Shown one piece after another: positions 884 to 34,552 of a DNA stretch of 35,976 nucleotides. A program made the translations under genes and the position numbers. Position 1 is the stretch's first letter; every line of letters begins with the position of its first letter. Source of the DNA: a virus; the IMG/VR virus record IMGVR_UViG_3300037493_000931, positions 1 through 35,976 of that record; one strand, given 5' to 3'. The notes under the pieces were generated by a model. The model worked only from the letters and a program-made list of their open reading frames with translations, was not told the DNA's origin and made no database searches.

Positions 884-900
884 ATGTTTATTTGTTCGGG

Positions 901-966
901 TCACTCTCCATTTGCCGACTTGTGACGGTCTGCTTGTGCAGGTTGGATTACCCCGTGTGGGGTCAT
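901..966 (-). CDS. Possible 21-aa coupled leader ORF
   Basis: A 22-codon frame (MTPHGVIQPAQADRHKSANGE) starts with an ATGA overlap on the stop of the gene at 963-1232 and ends 17 bp before the ATG of the membrane-protein gene. The ATGA coupling is the same device used throughout this operon, which is the only support. It may be a chance frame. Confidence 0.25.
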   Translation of the reverse strand: MTPHGVIQPAQADRHKSANGE

Positions 967-25647: not shown

Positions 25648-25886
25648 TGGCAAAGAGCATCCCAAAAGTAAACGGCATGGACTGGATTATTGACCAGCTT
25701 AAAGAAGTCACTCCTGACCCAGATGAGTTCAGCGCACAGATGGTTGCTGAAAAACTCAATCAAAGATTTGGTGTTATTCACTGCATGATTCAAAGGAAGG
25801 TTGCTAAAGGAGAGCTTACTAAGCGCAAGATACTCGTCAATGGACGACATGTAAATTACTACAAGCGGGTCATTTCTTCCCCCTAA
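25647..25886 (+). CDS. Small winged-helix-like protein, last rightward gene (79 aa)
   Basis: A 79-residue basic protein whose central part (FSAQMVAEKLNQRFGVIHCMIQRKV...GELTKR) reads as a helix-turn-helix with a following beta wing. It may regulate late transcription. Its 3' end overlaps the convergent helicase-loader gene by 17 bp, so the two operons collide here without a visible terminator. Confidence 0.65.
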   Translation: MAKSIPKVNGMDWIIDQLKEVTPDPDEFSAQMVAEKLNQRFGVIHCMIQRKVAKGELTKRKILVNGRHVNYYKRVISSP

Positions 25887-26451
25887 ACGATTCCCAGTTA
25901 AAAGCTAACGCTTCGCCATTCTCATTAAACCTATCCATCACAGCGGGGGATAGAGTGGATGATAGCTTCTCAAATGTATAGTTTGAAATCAGGATTGTTG
26001 GCATGTTGTCTAAATACCTAGCGTCGATGATGGCTGTGAGCTTGTCGTCCTCGAATTTCGTCTCTCCCCTGACCTGCACTTCGTCAATCACCAGCAGGGC
26101 AGCATCGCAGTAATCTTTGATAACTTCCCTTTCTGACTTCTCAGACCCCTCGGTGTAAGTGGATTTGATTGTTGAGAAAAGGTTCATTGCTGTGGTGTAA
26201 ACCATCGGACGCTTCCTGTAAGTGGTCGTCCATCCTGGCTCCCCCGTGCTGATGTTCGGTCGCTTGGACTTGTGCGCTCTAGCAACCTCCCATGCCATCC
26301 GCGTCTTGCCTGTGCCATATCCCCCGTGGAGGATCGTAATGCCCCCAGAATCGGTTGCGGCAAGTGCTTTGGCGTAGTTTGCCAACCATCCTTCACCTGT
26401 CGCTGGTGGGGCATCCTCGTAGCGTTTTGGGAATCCTCGTAGTGGGTTCAT
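25870..26451 (-). CDS. DnaC/IstB-like AAA+ helicase loader (193 aa)
   Basis: Walker A GGYGTGKT is at residues 43-50, Walker B LLVIDE at 119-124, a sensor-1 Asn in PTILISNY near 156-163, and an arginine-finger region SPAVMDRF near 169-176. The 193-residue length and motif spacing match DnaC-type loaders. It would load the host replicative helicase at the phage origin, since the window encodes no helicase. It is the last gene of the leftward operon and is coupled to the preceding gene by ATGA. Confidence 0.85.
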   Translation of the reverse strand: MNPLRGFPKRYEDAPPATGEGWLANYAKALAATDSGGITILHGGYGTGKTRMAWEVARAHKSKRPNISTGEPGWTTTYRKRPMVYTTAMNLFSTIKSTYTEGSEKSEREVIKDYCDAALLVIDEVQVRGETKFEDDKLTAIIDARYLDNMPTILISNYTFEKLSSTLSPAVMDRFNENGEALAFNWESFRGKK

Positions 26452-26944: not shown

Positions 26945-26999
26945 TTCTAACTTATCGCATCAGGAAAGGCTCTTGCCTTCCTGTGCTGGGGTGTTCGTT
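26945..26999 (+). other. attC-like site a (55 bp)
   Basis: The outer boxes are TTCTAAC (26945-26951) and GTTCGTT (26993-26999). The inner arms CAGGAAAGGC (26961-26970) and GCCTTCCTG (26975-26983) pair perfectly apart from one extra A. It is the shortest and leftmost site. Confidence 0.65.
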
Positions 27000-27037
27000 G
27001 AAGAATTTCCAGAACCACCAACCACCGCACCAACACC

Positions 27038-27328
27038 ATGAGACATAATCTGTTTATCGTCTACGACCTCAATTCGCCCGGACAGAACTACGCCGCCGTC
27101 AGAGACGCTATCAAGGCTCTCGGGAAGTGGCACCAGTTCCAATACTCCCTCTTCTACGTCAATACGCTGTTCAGCGCAGAGGATGCCTTTGCCAAGGTCA
27201 TCTCCGTTATGGACACCAACGATCGGTTGGCGGTGATTAACGCCGAGAGAGGTGTTGTCAGCACTTGGGATCGGCCTCCCATCACTGAGATAAACGCCAT
27301 CTGGAGTCAGCACCAGGTCGAAGGGTGA
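27038..27328 (+). CDS. Cas2/SinR-like small protein, cassette 1 (96 aa)
   Basis: The product begins with beta strand NLFIVYDLNSPGQNY (residues 4-18), then a helix, then WHQFQYSLFYVNT (about 31-43), a second helix and DTNDRLAVINA (about 58-68). This is the ferredoxin-like layout of Cas2 and the related SinR/VapD-type proteins; YDLNSPGQ is typical of the SinR-like branch. No cas1 or CRISPR is near, so an adaptation role is unlikely; an RNase/toxin-like or counter-defence role is possible. It is the only cassette gene in the standard orientation, followed by its own attC-like site. A long antisense frame exists but lacks recognisable features. Confidence 0.65.
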   Translation: MRHNLFIVYDLNSPGQNYAAVRDAIKALGKWHQFQYSLFYVNTLFSAEDAFAKVISVMDTNDRLAVINAERGVVSTWDRPPITEINAIWSQHQVEG

Positions 27329-27424: not shown

Positions 27425-27513
27425 AACGAACAAGACGCTTCATGCAACCCGCCGGAGCGTCTTTCTTACAATCGGAGTATAGCGTGGGCGGGTGCATGAG
27501 CTAGGCGTTCGGC
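27425..27513 (+). other. attC-like site 1 (89 bp)
   Basis: The outer boxes are AACGAAC (27425-27431) and GTTCGGC (27507-27513). Inner arms TCATGCAACCCGCC (27440-27453) and GGCGGGTGCATGA (27487-27499) pair over 13 bp with one extra A on the left. AACGAAC is the exact complement of the GTTCGTT that opens its cassette at 26993. Confidence 0.85.
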
Positions 27514-27788
27514 AAACAAGGAGAGTCGTCCGGCACTATGGGAGTGCATCCGCCATCCGTTCGTTCCGGCGTGACTTCCTGCCGTGGATGGGCTGCGAGA
27601 TAGACTTTGAAGCTGCGCCACTGGTCGCGGCGTTTCTCCCACTGTCCGGGGGCTGGTTCGATTCCGTCGTGGTCGTGGTTGAAGAAAGCCTGTTCGATGG
27701 TCTCAATGTCGAAAGTTCCCGCCAATGCCGAACAAGGCGGTGGAGGACAACAGCCTCCCGTTGAGTCTTTTGGTGTATTCATAGTCAT
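27501..27788 (-). CDS. Cassette 2 hypothetical protein (95 aa)
   Basis: The frame starts inside the loop of attC-like site 2 (ATGA overlap with the upstream cassette gene; MNTPKDS two codons later is an alternative start) and ends within site 1 as ...CLPNA-stop. The first 20 residues (Cys/Pro-rich, CCPPPPC) are therefore encoded by attC sequence. The middle (IETIEQAFFNHDHDGIEPAPGQWEKRRDQW...) looks like a genuine soluble domain. Function unknown. Confidence 0.6.
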   Translation of the reverse strand: MTMNTPKDSTGGCCPPPPCSALAGTFDIETIEQAFFNHDHDGIEPAPGQWEKRRDQWRSFKVYLAAHPRQEVTPERTDGGCTPIVPDDSPCLPNA

Positions 27789-27824
27789 TTGGCGGGAGGC
27801 TGTGCCTCACCTTGGGCGTTCGGC
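27727..27824 (+). other. attC-like site 2 (98 bp)
   Basis: The outer boxes GCCGAAC (27727-27733) and GTTCGGC (27818-27824) are fully complementary. Arms GGTGGAGG.CAACAGCCTCCCG and CGGGAGGCTGTGCCTCACC pair with three extra bases on the left arm, one of them the A seen in the other sites. The loop holds the minus-strand start codon of the cassette 2 gene. Confidence 0.8.
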
Positions 27825-28060
27825 AGACAATTATTACATTTAGGCTTCCCACCGAAAACGCGCCACCCAGCAGACCAAGCCTGTTCCGCGCATTCATCCT
27901 TGGTCTTACGGTAAAACCCCTCACCCCCGCATCCATTTGGGCAGAAGATTCGCCATTCACGCATTTCGCCGCCGTTATAATCCTTGTGCGACAAATACGG
28001 AATTAAAGAAGCCGAACAATTCGTGGGAGGCAACGCCTCGGAGTTAGTTAATGTATTCAT
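27785..28060 (-). CDS. Cassette 3 zinc-binding-type protein (91 aa)
   Basis: The 91-residue frame starts in the loop of site 3 and ends in site 2 with a TGA shared with the next ATG (ATGA). The N-terminus carries EALPPTNCSAS, encoded by the attC arm and nearly repeated in the cassette 6 protein. The body has four Cys/Gly motifs (FCPNGCGG, C, KPKCNNC) that fit a zinc ribbon. Probably a small regulatory or nucleic-acid-binding phage protein. Confidence 0.65.
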   Translation of the reverse strand: MNTLTNSEALPPTNCSASLIPYLSHKDYNGGEMREWRIFCPNGCGGEGFYRKTKDECAEQAWSAGWRVFGGKPKCNNCLPNAQGEAQPPAK

Positions 28061-28096
28061 GGTCGTTAGGGGCGTGCCTCCACAGAGGCGTTAGCC
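28011..28096 (+). other. attC-like site 3 (86 bp)
   Basis: The outer boxes are GCCGAAC (28011-28017) and GTTAGCC (28090-28096). Arms GTGGGAGGCAACGCC (28023-28037) and GGCGTGCCTCCAC (28071-28083) pair with two extra bases, including the A. GCCGAAC is the exact complement of the GTTCGGC that opens its cassette at 27818. Confidence 0.85.
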
Positions 28097-28287
28097 GGAG
28101 AATGCTTGATGCAATGCTTACAGGTCACGTGCTTCCAGTTTCTCGCCAGCAGTCCGCGAGGTGGTCGCTTGGAGTAGTAGCCTTTTCCTCCACGGCAAAC
28201 GGTGGTGGGTGTCAGTTCGTATTGCCCAAGCCCGACGTAGGCGTTGACCTTGGATTTGTAGTTCGCTTTGTGGATCGTTTCGCTCAT
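28066..28287 (-). CDS. Cassette 4 hypothetical protein (73 aa)
   Basis: I chose MSETIHKANY at 28287 with an A-rich leader; the frame is open back to an ATG at 28368 inside site 4 (MHGKANS...), which may be used as in neighbouring cassettes. The body includes a basic stretch (GGKGYYSKRPPRGLL) and a Cys pair (TCKHC). The last residues SPANASVEARP are encoded by the arm of site 3. Function unknown. Confidence 0.6.
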   Translation of the reverse strand: MSETIHKANYKSKVNAYVGLGQYELTPTTVCRGGKGYYSKRPPRGLLARNWKHVTCKHCIKHSPANASVEARP

Positions 28288-28298
28288 AATTTTAAGAA

Positions 28299-28417
28299 GG
28301 ATAACGTGCGGATGCGTTGTTGTGCATGAAAGGAGGTTTTGTGTATTGCTATTCGCTTTGCCGTGCATGCGTGTTATTCAAGGTCGGTTTTGGTTGTCCT
28401 GTGCTGAGGTGTTCGCA
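28299..28417 (+). other. attC-like site 4, degenerate (119 bp)
   Basis: The outer boxes are GGATAAC (28299-28305; 6/7 complementary to the cassette start GTTAGCC at 28090) and GTTCGCA (28411-28417). The interior holds a TGCATGAAA...TTTTGTGTA hairpin that recurs at 29219 and 30314. Arm pairing is poorer than in sites 1-3. Confidence 0.5.
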
Positions 28418-28536
28418 TTACATAAAGATTAAAGACATTCCGACTAATGCCCATAAAGCCGCTGTCTCGCCGTTTCCGTTTTTTAGCATGGCCGTTGCGA
28501 CTGGAAGCATGGCAATGCCCAAAATAATGCGAACAA
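28411..28536. repeat. Duplicated cassette body, copy 1
   Basis: These 126 bp match 29015-29140 with four differences that I count. The match starts exactly at GTTCGC and ends two bases after GCGAAC, where the sequences diverge abruptly. The limits coincide with the attC-like boxes. Confidence 0.9.
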
Positions 28537-28576
28537 TTCGCGGCAGATCAACCGCCCATTTGCTTTTCAATTTCAT
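28418..28576 (-). CDS. Cassette 5 two-helix membrane protein, copy 1 (52 aa)
   Basis: The start (MKLKSKWAV) lies in the loop of site 5 with an ATGA overlap on the preceding gene. The first 14 residues come from the attC arm. The remainder (IVRIILGIAMLPVATAML, then GETAALWALVGMSLIF) forms two transmembrane helices with a short polar turn. The C-terminal 30-plus residues are identical to the protein at 29022-29189. Possibly a holin-like or envelope protein; unknown. Confidence 0.65.
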   Translation of the reverse strand: MKLKSKWAVDLPRIVRIILGIAMLPVATAMLKNGNGETAALWALVGMSLIFM

Positions 28577-28624
28577 TTCGTTGGCATTTCTTGCGCGGCG
28601 GTGCCTGCGCTGTTTTGGTTCGCG
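28528..28624 (+). other. attC-like site 5 (97 bp)
   Basis: The outer boxes TGCGAAC (28528-28534) and GTTCGCG (28618-28624) pair over six bases. The inner arms (28539-28556 and 28597-28609) pair only with several bulges. TGCGAAC is the exact complement of the GTTCGCA that opens its cassette at 28411. Confidence 0.65.
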
Positions 28625-28977
28625 GGAGAAAATGACCATGTAATCGTCTCGTCCTTGTGCGGCAGTCCGCAGATATTACAGCACTTGATTTCCACCCATC
28701 CGGTTGAGTCTTCCCCGCACGCGCATTTCGGCTTGTGCATCTTTTCCAACGCCTGCTTGCAATGATTGCGCTCCCAAGTAACGCGTATGATGTCATTAAC
28801 GGCATTTGTAGCCTCTATAATGGCATCATTCATGCGCTTTTCCATGCTTCTCATGCTCATTACAAGATCGCTTTCACATTCGGCGTTAGCTACTGCTTCA
28901 TCGGTTTCTGGTGTGTCCCAAAAAGAAGAGGAACAATTTGTTGTAGGCAATGCCTCGGGTTTGGTTGGTTGGTTCAT
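28573..28977 (-). CDS. Cassette 6 coiled-coil/zinc-motif protein (134 aa)
   Basis: The start is at 28977 in the loop of site 6. The N-terminus has EALPTTNCSSS as in cassette 3, then TPETDEAVANAE and a helical stretch (MEKRMNDAIIEATNAVNDII, WERNHCKQALEKM). A Cys-rich part follows (CACGE...CCNICGLPH) that fits a zinc ribbon. It ends in site 5 as ...SPANQNSAGTAAQEMPTK. The TPETDE / helical pattern resembles the early protein at 30502-30894. Function unknown. Confidence 0.65.
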   Translation of the reverse strand: MNQPTKPEALPTTNCSSSFWDTPETDEAVANAECESDLVMSMRSMEKRMNDAIIEATNAVNDIIRVTWERNHCKQALEKMHKPKCACGEDSTGWVEIKCCNICGLPHKDETITWSFSPANQNSAGTAAQEMPTK

Positions 28978-29021
28978 ATTATTCAGTTTTGTTTTGGTTG
29001 TTGTTGGCTGGGGTGTTCGCA
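28928..29021 (+). other. attC-like site 6, degenerate (94 bp)
   Basis: The outer boxes are GAGGAAC (28928-28934) and GTTCGCA (29015-29021). The left half resembles site 3 (GAACAATT...GTAGGCAATGCCTCGG) while the right half resembles site 4 (GGTTGTT...GGGGTGTTCGC). The arms hardly pair, and it looks like a hybrid of two sites. Confidence 0.45.
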
Positions 29022-29140
29022 TTACATAAAAATCAGAGACATTCCGACTAATGCCCATAAAGCCGCTGTCTCGCCGTTTCCGTTTTTTAGCATGGCCGTT
29101 GCGACTGGAAGCATGGCAATGCCCGAAATAATGCGAACAA
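29015..29140. repeat. Duplicated cassette body, copy 2
   Basis: Second copy of 28411-28536, with the same limits at the attC-like boxes. Confidence 0.9.
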
Positions 29141-29189
29141 GGCGTGCGAGGCAACGCGAGGAACGTCTGATTTTGGATTCGGGCTTCAT
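29022..29189 (-). CDS. Cassette 7 two-helix membrane protein, copy 2 (55 aa)
   Basis: Starts at MKPESKIRRSS in the loop of site 7. The frame is also open upstream to an ATG at 29261 (MHNKRLDIHK...), shared with the cassette 10 gene leader. The first 17 residues are encoded by the attC arm and differ from copy 1, while the two-helix body is almost identical. The pair shows the same body joined to two different attC-encoded N-termini. Confidence 0.65.
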   Translation of the reverse strand: MKPESKIRRSSRCLARLVRIISGIAMLPVATAMLKNGNGETAALWALVGMSLIFM

Positions 29190-29219
29190 TCGTCGCGTGC
29201 CTCCACTTGGTCGTTCGGC
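29132..29219 (+). other. attC-like site 7 (88 bp)
   Basis: The outer boxes are TGCGAAC (29132-29138) and GTTCGGC (29213-29219). Arms GTGCGAGGCAACGCGA (29144-29159) and TCGCGTGCCTCCAC (29193-29206) pair with two extra bases in the same places as site 3. TGCGAAC exactly complements the cassette start GTTCGCA at 29015. Confidence 0.85.
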
Positions 29220-29306
29220 ATGAAAGGCGGTTTTGTGTATGTCTAGGCGTTTGTTGTGCATGAGTGTTGCTTAAAGTTTGCCCTTCTCGCCTTCCTGTGC
29301 TGGGGT
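29190..29306. other. Cassette 8 remnant without a clear gene
   Basis: Between the boxes GTTCGGC (29213) and GTTAGCC (29307) there is only a copy of the roughly 60-bp CATGAAA...TAGGCGTTTGTTGTGCATGAGTG element also present at 30315-30366, plus the CCTTCCTGTGCTGGGGTGTT tail shared with site a. No AAC box is present on the plus strand, so its site is degraded. Confidence 0.55.
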
Positions 29307-29307
29307 G

Positions 29308-30054
29308 TTAGCCCAAGAGAAAGGCGGTTTGCGTGGTGATCGGTGCGTTGATTTCATAGCGTTGGCTTTGTCCTTTCGGGTATGGTTCCACAGGGTATTT
29401 GAGAGCCGCCCTGATTGCGGACTGTTGCTTTTTCGTTCCCACCGCGAAGACATAGCGATGCTTTCGCGGGCGGTCGTCCAGATAGAAGTCGTCACCGTAT
29501 TTCTCGCGCATCCATTCAGCGCGGTTGGCTTGGCCTCGGCTTTCGTCTGCCACGGTTGCGCCGTGGAGATGTTCGCGGCCTTTGATTTTCCAGTCTGTGC
29601 GCTTCGCGCTCAGTCCGGTGTAGATGAAGTTCGTTGCTTGGTAGATGTAGCCGACATGCCCTTGTGCCGTGTCTGCGTAGCTTACCACCACGGACGGTTT
29701 CGGCAGCATCCTCAGCGACCTTCCCACCAGTAGGCTTGCCACGTTTGGGGAGTTCTCGCAGCACAGGCGATTCAGTTCCAGCACATGCTCTGCCCATTCG
29801 TCGCCGCACAGTCCGCCTCTCAGCGGTGCGCTTGCTGGCGTGCCGTATGTCACCACCCCGACAAGCTCCGTGCCCCGCCACGCTCCGAAGGCGTAGGAGA
29901 TCGGACACATGCGCTTTGCATAGTGCCGCATTAGCAAGAACGGTTCGGCCTCCTTCGCTGGTATCGCAGCCACCAAAAGAGGGCTAACAAGACGCTGCAT
30001 GGAATGCCGCGCAGCGTCTTTGGCGAGTTCGGGAGTCTGTGATGCGGCATCCAT
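29308..30054 (-). CDS. Mom-like DNA modification protein, cassette 9 (248 aa)
   Basis: The core carries VVSYADTAQGH (residues 123-133) followed by VGYIYQATNFIYTG (134-147), the most typical block of the phage Mu Mom family. Mom is a GNAT-fold enzyme that adds a methylcarbamoyl group to adenine and protects phage DNA from restriction. Upstream parts (ISYAFGAWRGTELVGVVTYG, LELNRLCCENSPN) also fit. I chose the ATG at 30054, within site 9, five bases after the preceding stop; the first 25 residues are attC-encoded. The stop codon lies in the box GTTAGCC at 29307. A small zinc-ribbon gene lies two genes upstream. Confidence 0.75.
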   Translation of the reverse strand: MDAASQTPELAKDAARHSMQRLVSPLLVAAIPAKEAEPFLLMRHYAKRMCPISYAFGAWRGTELVGVVTYGTPASAPLRGGLCGDEWAEHVLELNRLCCENSPNVASLLVGRSLRMLPKPSVVVSYADTAQGHVGYIYQATNFIYTGLSAKRTDWKIKGREHLHGATVADESRGQANRAEWMREKYGDDFYLDDRPRKHRYVFAVGTKKQQSAIRAALKYPVEPYPKGQSQRYEINAPITTQTAFLLG

Positions 30055-30071
30055 GAGCTTATGCGTTAGCG
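29982..30071 (+). other. attC-like site 9 (90 bp)
   Basis: The outer boxes GGCTAAC (29982-29988) and GTTAGCG (30065-30071) pair over six bases. Arms CATGGAATGCCGC (29998-30010) and GCGGCATCCATG (30044-30055) pair over 12 bp with one extra A. GGCTAAC exactly complements the cassette start GTTAGCC at 29307. Confidence 0.85.
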
Positions 30072-30358
30072 GAAGAAATCCACCCGGCGAAAAACGCTTC
30101 GAGCCGGGCCGGGAATAGTCCGCCAGATTCGTTTGTCCCAAGGATGGCATCGTCTAGGCAGTCGAAGTGTATTTCTTCTTTTGCCCACTCCTCGTATGCG
30201 GCTTTTGCCTGCATCGCGGTTTCGAAGTTGTAGCCGTAGGGTTTCCATCGTTCTTCGAGCTGTTCCAGTCCGGAGACATCCTCCAAGACCGCTAACCAGC
30301 GGATGCGTTGTTGTGTATGAAATGCGGTTTCGTGCATGTCTAGGCGTTTGTTGTGCAT
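30059..30358 (-). CDS. Cassette 10 hypothetical protein (99 aa)
   Basis: The 99-residue frame starts in the right-hand site (MHNKRLDMHETAFH, nearly repeated in the leader at 29261) and ends in site 9 as ...ISSANA. The body is acidic and helical (GLEQLEERWKPYGYNFETAM, AYEEWAKEEIHFD). Not recognised; the body length suggests a genuine domain. Confidence 0.6.
   Translation of the reverse strand: MHNKRLDMHETAFHTQQRIRWLAVLEDVSGLEQLEERWKPYGYNFETAMQAKAAYEEWAKEEIHFDCLDDAILGTNESGGLFPARLEAFFAGWISSANA
30290..30352 (+). other. attC-like site 10, right end of array (63 bp)
   Basis: The outer boxes are CGCTAAC (30290-30296) and GTTTGTT (30346-30352). The inner hairpin TGTATGAAA / TTTCGTGCA pairs with wobbles. 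CGCTAAC exactly complements the cassette start GTTAGCG at 30065. Beyond it the ordinary phage operon resumes. Confidence 0.65.
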
Positions 30359-30367
30359 GAGTGTTGT

Positions 30368-30505
30368 TTAATGTGCGTTTTGGTTGCATTTATCCCCATC
30401 ATAATCATCCCGCTCCGCCTCATCCTCCCCGATACAAATAGGGCAGGTTGTGGTTGAGCTGGGCCAGTTGGTGCTTCCGCAGATGTGGCAGGGTCGTTTT
30501 GTCAT
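30368..30505 (-). CDS. Small zinc-ribbon protein (45 aa)
   Basis: MTKRPCHICGSTNW...CPICIGEDEAERDD has two CxxC pairs (residues 6-9 and 21-24), a minimal zinc ribbon, and an acidic C-terminus. It is coupled by ATGA to the gene at 30502 and is the last ordinary gene before the cassette array. Mu uses a small zinc protein (Com) to control mom translation; a similar link here is only speculation. Confidence 0.65.
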   Translation of the reverse strand: MTKRPCHICGSTNWPSSTTTCPICIGEDEAERDDYDGDKCNQNAH

Positions 30506-33742: not shown

Positions 33743-34552
33743 TCATAGATAAACTGGTTTCTCAATGATGGTAATCCCCTCATGTTGGCGCGGCCATGTG
33801 TCCGTGGCACAACACGCTTGCCATTTCGCAACAGCGTTCATGTATCCGACTCGCCCCGCCTCGATGAGTTCAGGGGAGACTTCCACCCATGCTGACTCAT
33901 GCGGTGAATCAACCTCGATGAAGCAAATAACAAAGCGTGTGCGATTCTCTCCGCTGGCAGCGTTCCATAGGTCGAGATACAAAGCAGCTTGCCAGTGGTA
34001 ACCTCGGTCAATGATGGTATTGGTGATGTTCCTTAAACTGCCGATTTTCGCGGTAGTCTTGAGATCCACCAGCAGGTCTAGGTCGTCGGGGACAAGATCA
34101 ATCATCCCTTTGATTTCAGTTGCGCCAATGATAGCGAACACTGCGACCTCGGACTTGTATCCACCCCCGAATCTGTAGGCGTAGTCTTCGGAAAAGACCT
34201 GTTCACAACCTGAAGCTGCGCGGATGTCGTCGCTGGTTGCTATCATCTTCCCCATAGCTCTCGCATCGTCTCTCCATTCCTGGGCGGCTTTTGTGCGAAA
34301 GTCTGGGAATGGCATGACAGCGGCGATGTCCTCCAGCGGGATATTGGGTTCTAGGATAGCGGAGTGGATAAGCGTGCCTAAATCCATCGCCTTCGTTGCT
34401 TCTCGCCCCGTGGAATGTCGCCACTTGTAGGGAGATTGGTTGAAATCCCATAGCAGCGACTTTGAAACAGGCGCGTTCAGGTTCCTGGGCGATGCAGAGC
34501 GCATATAATACGCTTTGCCTAGGTTGTATTCGATGGTTGCTTCTTTTATCAT
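33743..34552 (-). CDS. RecE/Cas4-like PD-(D/E)XK nuclease (269 aa)
   Basis: Motifs appear in order: GTLIHSAILEP with His 63, an acidic GMIDLVPDD around 149-157, VDLKTT at 162-167 (the D-x-K pair) and a Gln in YHWQAALYL at 185-193. These are the RecB/RecE-type exonuclease residues of the PDDEXK_12 (DUF3799) group. The enzyme would resect double-strand ends for the annealing protein encoded just upstream, to which it is coupled by ATGA. Confidence 0.85.
   Translation of the reverse strand: MIKEATIEYNLGKAYYMRSASPRNLNAPVSKSLLWDFNQSPYKWRHSTGREATKAMDLGTLIHSAILEPNIPLEDIAAVMPFPDFRTKAAQEWRDDARAMGKMIATSDDIRAASGCEQVFSEDYAYRFGGGYKSEVAVFAIIGATEIKGMIDLVPDDLDLLVDLKTTAKIGSLRNITNTIIDRGYHWQAALYLDLWNAASGENRTRFVICFIEVDSPHESAWVEVSPELIEAGRVGYMNAVAKWQACCATDTWPRQHEGITIIEKPVYL

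Follow-up and report, generated by a model that had tools for sequence, protein, structure and literature searches.

Mirror-image gene cassettes in a phage genome: an integrase-less attC array whose recombination sites appear to code for protein

The IMG/VR virus record IMGVR_UViG_3300037493_000931, analysed here over its whole length of 35,976 bp (the window), contains an array of small gene cassettes separated by attC sites, the recombination sites of integrons. Six attC sites lie within 2.7 kb, five recovered by a strict scan and one (28528–28624) by its fold. With at least two such sites within a few kilobases and no integrase gene (intI) found, the array is a cluster of attC sites lacking integron integrases (CALIN). 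The evidence set out below makes it highly probable that this integrase-less phage CALIN is a mirror image of classical cassettes, with attC arms that code for protein.

The scan required RYYYAAC...GTTRRRY cores with complementary L arms, and ten shuffles served as control. It returned five strong sites between 27425 and 30071, all on the plus strand and none on the minus strand; the ten shuffled sequences together gave one weaker match. The scan is conservative and its counts are lower bounds: among published arrays it recovered one region of TJE1, with weak candidates only in the searched part of PH101. Site 1 (27425–27513, scan score −26.1) is delimited by R'' AACGAAC and R' GTTCGGC, site 2 (27727–27824, score −30.6, fold −24.5 kcal/mol) by GCCGAAC and GTTCGGC, site 7 (29132–29219, score −25.0) by TGCGAAC and GTTCGGC, and site 9 (29982–30071, score −25.9), for which there are also junction alignments, by GGCTAAC and GTTAGCG. 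Site 3 (28011–28096, score −23.3) belongs to a family, NASVEAR / MNTPTNSEALPLTNCSA, that is common to many phages. Folding of the bottom strand places extrahelical (bulged) bases on the '' arm of sites 1, 2, 7 and 9, as in canonical attC, and this fixes the polarity of the sites. Site 5 (28528–28624, plus strand; R'' TGCGAAC) folds well, at −15.8 kcal/mol, but its R' (GTTCGCG) has an imperfect spacer and fails the strict scan. A degenerate half-site on the same strand (28920–29022) retains the R''/L'' arm and leader; its R'/L' arm has been replaced and the stem lost (−3.8 kcal/mol). On the minus strand a half-site motif, (G)AACACCYCAGCACAGGA, recurs at 26983–27004, 28389–28422, 28990–29018 and 29285–29318; it consists of R' plus L', with the matching L''/R'' absent, and possibly represents decayed attC or a different type of site. 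A repeat of 65–68 nt (GCGTTGTTGTGCATGAAAGGCGGTTTTGTGTATG...) is present in three diverged copies (28290–28390, 29205–29290 and 30286–30375), at cassette ends without attC structure.

All but one of the array genes are encoded on the minus strand, against the attC direction. The gene at 27501–27788 (95 aa) begins at one of two ATGs in the attC-2 loop (27788 or 27782), takes its leader MTMNTPKDSTGGCCPPPPCS from attC-2 and its tail LPNA from attC-1, and has its TAG stop inside attC-1; at another viral locus (L166) the same leader and attC precede a different body. Overlapping it through an ATGA at 27785–27788 is a gene for a 91-aa protein (27785–28060) whose leader MNTLTNSEALPPTNCSAS (EALPPTNCSAS) comes from the loop, L'' and R'' of attC-3 and whose tail PNAQGEAQPPAK comes from R'/L' of attC-2; a protein search of viral contigs found no relatives. 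The next gene (28066–28287, 73 aa) ends in the attC-3-derived tail SPANASVEARP and starts outside its degenerate site (~28296–28385). The gene at 28418–28576 (52 aa) starts with MKLKSKWAVDLPRIV in the attC-5 loop and overlaps the upstream stop through a second ATGA (28573–28576). That stop belongs to a 134-aa gene (28573–28977) with leader MNQPTKPEALPTTNCSSS (EALPTTNCSSS) and a tail, SPANQNSAGTAAQEMPTK (SPANQ...), that passes through the attC-5 R' in frame 0, the frame in which AAC of RYYYAAC is a codon; a relative at locus L225 bears the leader MNTPTNSEALPLTNCSA. The gene at 29022–29189 (55 aa) starts with MKPESKIRRSSRCLARLV in the attC-7 loop, and it and the gene at 28418–28576 are one duplicated body (28387–28536 versus 28991–29140, 94% identity) behind two different attC leaders. 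A Mom-like DNA-modification gene (29308–30054, 248 aa; Pfam Mom, E=1e-39; PHROG 1384, 3e-52) starts in the attC-9 loop with the attC-9 leader MDAASQTPELAKDAARHSMQRLVS and stops at the TAA within an R' box, right after which neighbouring sequences diverge. The last gene (30059–30358, 99 aa) takes its tail SSANA from R'/L' of attC-9 and starts in a degenerate site. Other stop/start pairs are separated by short gaps (28066/28060 and 30059/30054), and five of the six attC sites are crossed in the AAC frame, giving the tails PNA, PNAQGEAQPPAK, SPANASVEARP, SPANQNSAGTAAQEMPTK and SSANA. The sole gene in the attC direction encodes a Cas2-like small protein (27038–27328, plus strand; phrog_1090, 2e-16; Pfam Cas2 weak, 0.029) and is flanked by attC-1 and by an R'-like half-site near 26990. 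A classical cassette, in which a complete open reading frame (ORF) is followed by its attC in the same direction, is not what is seen here: the genes oppose the attC, and most reach R' without meeting a stop.

An earlier note on this sequence had described genes that start in attC loops, often with ATGA overlaps, and whose arms encode leaders and tails. The two overlaps are there, as are the leaders EALPPTNCSAS and EALPTTNCSSS and the tails PNA (stop at 27501), SPANQ... (28573) and SSANA (30059). The claim for starts is too broad, in that the gene at 28066–28287 begins outside its site. Two further points need to be set right: the site of the note's cassette 6 (28920–29022) is no longer an intact attC, only its leader half surviving; and the stop of Mom lies inside the R' box, not beyond it.

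The same arrangement is found well beyond the window. Among ~200 related viral loci, with Mom, IstB or the exonuclease as reference gene, attC sites oppose the gene in 64 cases and run along it in 5 (shuffled, 2), counts that include overlapping loci of the same contigs. Reading frames at R' were counted in 42 independent upstream contexts with an attC score of −21 or lower. On the bottom strand the longest open frame into R' is the AAC frame in 28 of 42, the other two accounting for 7 each, and ORFs of at least 50 codons enter R' 31 times in the AAC frame versus 12 and 10 in the others. The top strand has no frame preference (11, 12 and 16) and its open runs are short. Past R', it is mostly the L' arm or the loop that closes the AAC frame. 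Of 32 sites of this kind, 22 have an ORF of at least 50 aa beginning between −8 and +12 relative to that stop, and the commonest position is −4 (9 sites), which corresponds to the ATGA overlap. From sequence, then, it holds that reverse genes pass R' in one preferred frame and that the pattern is general. A second, shorter attC class of ~60 nt, with the tail NVQDDSRDLSR, occurs at L022, L028 and L031 and is likewise crossed in frame 0.

Leaders were followed with a family pattern (ATGAAYACA, a gap, GAGGCRTTGCC) that retrieved 38 stretches from viral contigs. True members of the NASVEAR family have a constant distance from ATG to L'', the leader MNTPTNSEALPLTNCSA and, mostly, the tail NASVEAR upstream. 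This leader precedes 20 independent, unrelated bodies. In the frame of the leader every one of the 20 stays open for 40 codons or more (median 78), as against 2 of 20 in each of the other frames. Six variants of the 72-nt Mom leader differ by no indel; of their single-codon differences 44 are synonymous and 19 non-synonymous, these being pairwise and not independent counts; at L009 a 1-nt deletion falls immediately upstream of the Mom ATG. Further attC families have a like pattern of tails and leaders, although the search with the NAESIHP-family pattern also caught ordinary genes by chance. The attC family of L152 and L196, with the tail xEVRHGAKDxDxE, is tail-coding and not leader-coding.

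Comparison of loci places the ends of homology at the boxes. When the Mom cassette of the window is compared with that of L004–L011, the sequences of six contexts agree from the R' AAC onward, and what lies upstream is unrelated. Over the compared loci R' is the starting point of 102 alignments and the end point of 32, numbers that are not independent and in which the Mom cassette dominates. The exact breaks in homology at R' across several phage contexts show that exchange of the cassettes took place at integron junctions, with the crossover at R' on the bottom strand (RYYYAA/C) and with Mom and other cassettes as mobile units bounded there. Breaks are seen at R'' as well: 204 alignments run from R' and halt at R'', and 23 start at R'' into the body (neither count deduplicated by family). 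These breaks, and the body present twice in the window behind two attC leaders, indicate that R'' has also served as a point at which attC modules and bodies were joined in new combinations. Whether the attC is in general a portable junction module of stop, start and leader, swapped at both R' and R'' so that bodies, leaders and tails mix independently among unrelated phages, we regard as evenly balanced.

These comparisons bear out the earlier note where it had array genes running mostly against the attC direction and recombination re-joining them, and arm-derived leaders, which it had suggested looking for in related phages, are found there in frame with unrelated bodies. Nor do the plus-strand frames, which the note had named as the alternative, look like the translated ones. 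What the present analysis would add is that a cassette usually has no stop of its own, and that R'' breaks re-pair attC modules with bodies.

The cassette genes, opposed to the attC direction, are co-directional with the minus-strand replication operon of the phage. We propose that a cassette, followed in gene direction, consists of the crossover point in R', next the attC and last the gene body. Any upstream gene would find an in-frame stop in the L' arm and loop. The loop would also contain the start codon from which the cassette's gene is read, and the first 15–25 residues of that gene would be encoded by the loop together with L'' and R''. The body, usually stopless, would exit via the next R' in the AAC frame and be closed by the attC of the next cassette, a minority such as Mom terminating on the TAA that forms part of RYYTAAC. 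Whichever two cassettes meet at R', the upstream protein would then be correctly terminated, gaining a short new tail, and translation would restart only a few bases away. Most likely, an integron integrase of the host recombines the folded bottom-strand hairpins during infection. Once transcribed, this hairpin would show stop and start in an open loop of the mRNA, at which ribosomes arriving from the upstream gene probably terminate and reinitiate. The attC structure, exact R' junctions, orientation, frame preference, in-frame leaders and sharing among phages without matching terminases are read from sequence; the enzyme, expression of the proteins and benefit to the phage we infer.

The tyrosine recombinase family PF00589 is matched neither by the window nor by 35 of the 36 other phage records, and the agent is therefore likely to be the integrase of the host or of a co-infecting element. 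A partial tyrosine-recombinase match in the L010 record (G002:C1:9805-10011) is the sole one among the 37 phage records. Mom had no match among 84,980 bacterial and archaeal genomes, a capsid search of the same set gave one weak and uninformative match in a Clostridia metagenome-assembled genome, and the attC family was absent from GenBank phages and plasmids. Viral records that carry the NASVEAR family are 13 to 100 kb long, and most of them lack a match to the terminase of the window; some are fragments, and the absence of a match does not prove a different lineage. The cassette pool nevertheless appears to be common to unrelated phages.

Several observations count against a mirror-image CALIN with coding arms. 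At about one third of the sites the longest frame is other than frame 0, these sites including false attC calls, ends at the R' TAA and cases without an upstream gene. The start codon lies past R'' at some sites (e.g. L152 and L196), and not all attC are leader-coding. No host integron bearing these attC families was found. Lastly, bottom-strand recombination at R' alone does not account for the R'' breakpoints, which could come from rare top-strand recombination or from cassette genesis. On one rival account the arms are untranslated, as in classical non-coding attC, with starts downstream of R'' or ORFs overlapping the sites by chance. The first good ATG after R'' at L152 and L196 and the low complexity of the leaders would suit that account, but it is hard to square with the leader frame open in 20/20 bodies as against 2/20 per other frame, the constant ATG-to-L'' distance, the synonymous excess in an indel-free Mom leader, and a frame preference at R' that is present on the bottom strand and absent on the top; we judge it very unlikely. 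That the hairpins are regulatory or coupling hairpins of an ordinary operon, and not recombination sites, is more improbable still: tightly packed co-directional genes with stop/start pairs in the loops are what such an operon would show, yet attC-type R''/R' cores and bulges are not, and neither are cassettes common to several phages whose homology breaks exactly at the R' core between neighbours that differ on both sides.

Shuffling by the homologous recombination of the phage itself, with attC as short homology and no integron integrase, draws on the ERF and PDDEXK exonuclease genes, on the lack of a tyrosine recombinase found in the phage, and on the attC-only blocks (R' to R'') shared by otherwise unrelated genes. 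Homologous exchange would leave breaks anywhere in common arms, whereas they fall at the R' core even when the arms differ, and the bulged attC hairpin, unneeded for annealing, has been retained; we hold this explanation to be unlikely. Reverse-oriented genes occur occasionally in classical arrays, and the window has its one gene in the canonical direction (27038–27328), so one might picture classical cassettes inserted inverted, with a secondary fit of starts and stops to the attC that is peculiar to this phage. Since both the reverse gene orientation and the preferred frame turn up in many phages, at dozens of independent sites, we find that scarcely credible.

The array sits inside a block of minus-strand genes extending from ~35.5 kb down to 25.9 kb. 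Upstream of it in gene direction is the PDDEXK exonuclease of the early operon (33743–34552, minus strand; Pfam), and its downstream flank is an IstB/DnaC-like ATPase (25870–26451, minus strand; Pfam); a terminase, an SU10-type capsid and an ERF annealing protein are also encoded in the window. The closest isolate by capsid, Phage C75C1 (54%), has no attC by our own scan. Sigma-70 promoters and terminators in the array region do not exceed the shuffle level, and Rfam gave no match within the array; outside it, a twister-P1 ribozyme match (898–954, minus strand) is below threshold, at 37 bits against a gathering score of 67. Most cassette genes have weak Shine-Dalgarno motifs or none, as is also the case for the other phage genes, and loop starts cannot be distinguished by them; their scarcity would be consistent with starts that depend on coupling and on open start regions, though it is no proof of this.

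Class 1 integrons and the Vibrio superintegron resemble the window in attC structure, the R' junction and exchange of small cassettes, and in Vibrio repeats one attC family is carried by many genes, as in the phage families. They differ in order: a classical integron has a complete gene followed by its attC, whereas here the attC comes first and holds the neighbour's stop together with the start and leader of its own gene; classical cassettes end themselves, whereas these genes are usually closed by the next cassette. Nivina and colleagues reportedly engineered protein-coding attC sites (in Sci Adv, 2020); theirs is a synthetic design, whereas the arrangement here is natural and apparently widespread. 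Clusters of attC without an integrase, with small cargo including DNA-modification genes as in the window, have been described in virulent phages, and five of six phage attC tested were functional with IntI1 (Qi et al., 2023; PMC9892861). As far as the accessible text of that paper goes, the cassettes of TJE1 and PH101 have the typical, same direction, in contrast to the reversed array here, and coding attC arms, loop stop and start codons, an R' frame preference and stopless cassettes are not reported in it. The short attI/attC reading frames ORF-11 and ORF-18 aid expression via termination–reinitiation (Jacquier et al., reviewed in PMC8876359); there too ribosomes cross a recombination site and the inserted cassette supplies the stop codon, but those two are separate, very small leader ORFs that run in the attC/attI direction, whereas here the cassette proteins themselves cross, in the opposite direction. 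In a search of open-access papers we found no description of arrays in which the genes run in reverse, the attC arms are coding and the cassettes lack stops. Phage CALINs are thus already known; the mirror-image arrangement with coding attC appears to be new.

The array reverses the textbook cassette: a recombination site can, on this reading, be protein-coding and bring with it the stops and starts that punctuate an operon, leaving translation unbroken when genes are shuffled. If so, lytic phages could trade small accessory genes across lineages via a host integrase, an example being the Mom DNA-modification gene, whose role is probably anti-restriction. One attC family in front of 20 unrelated genes, together with the R'' breaks, offers material on the origin of gene cassettes. 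If the attC is indeed a portable junction module, the phages would provide a natural case of modular shuffling of protein termini, in which cassettes are made by in-frame joining of an attC to a new gene.

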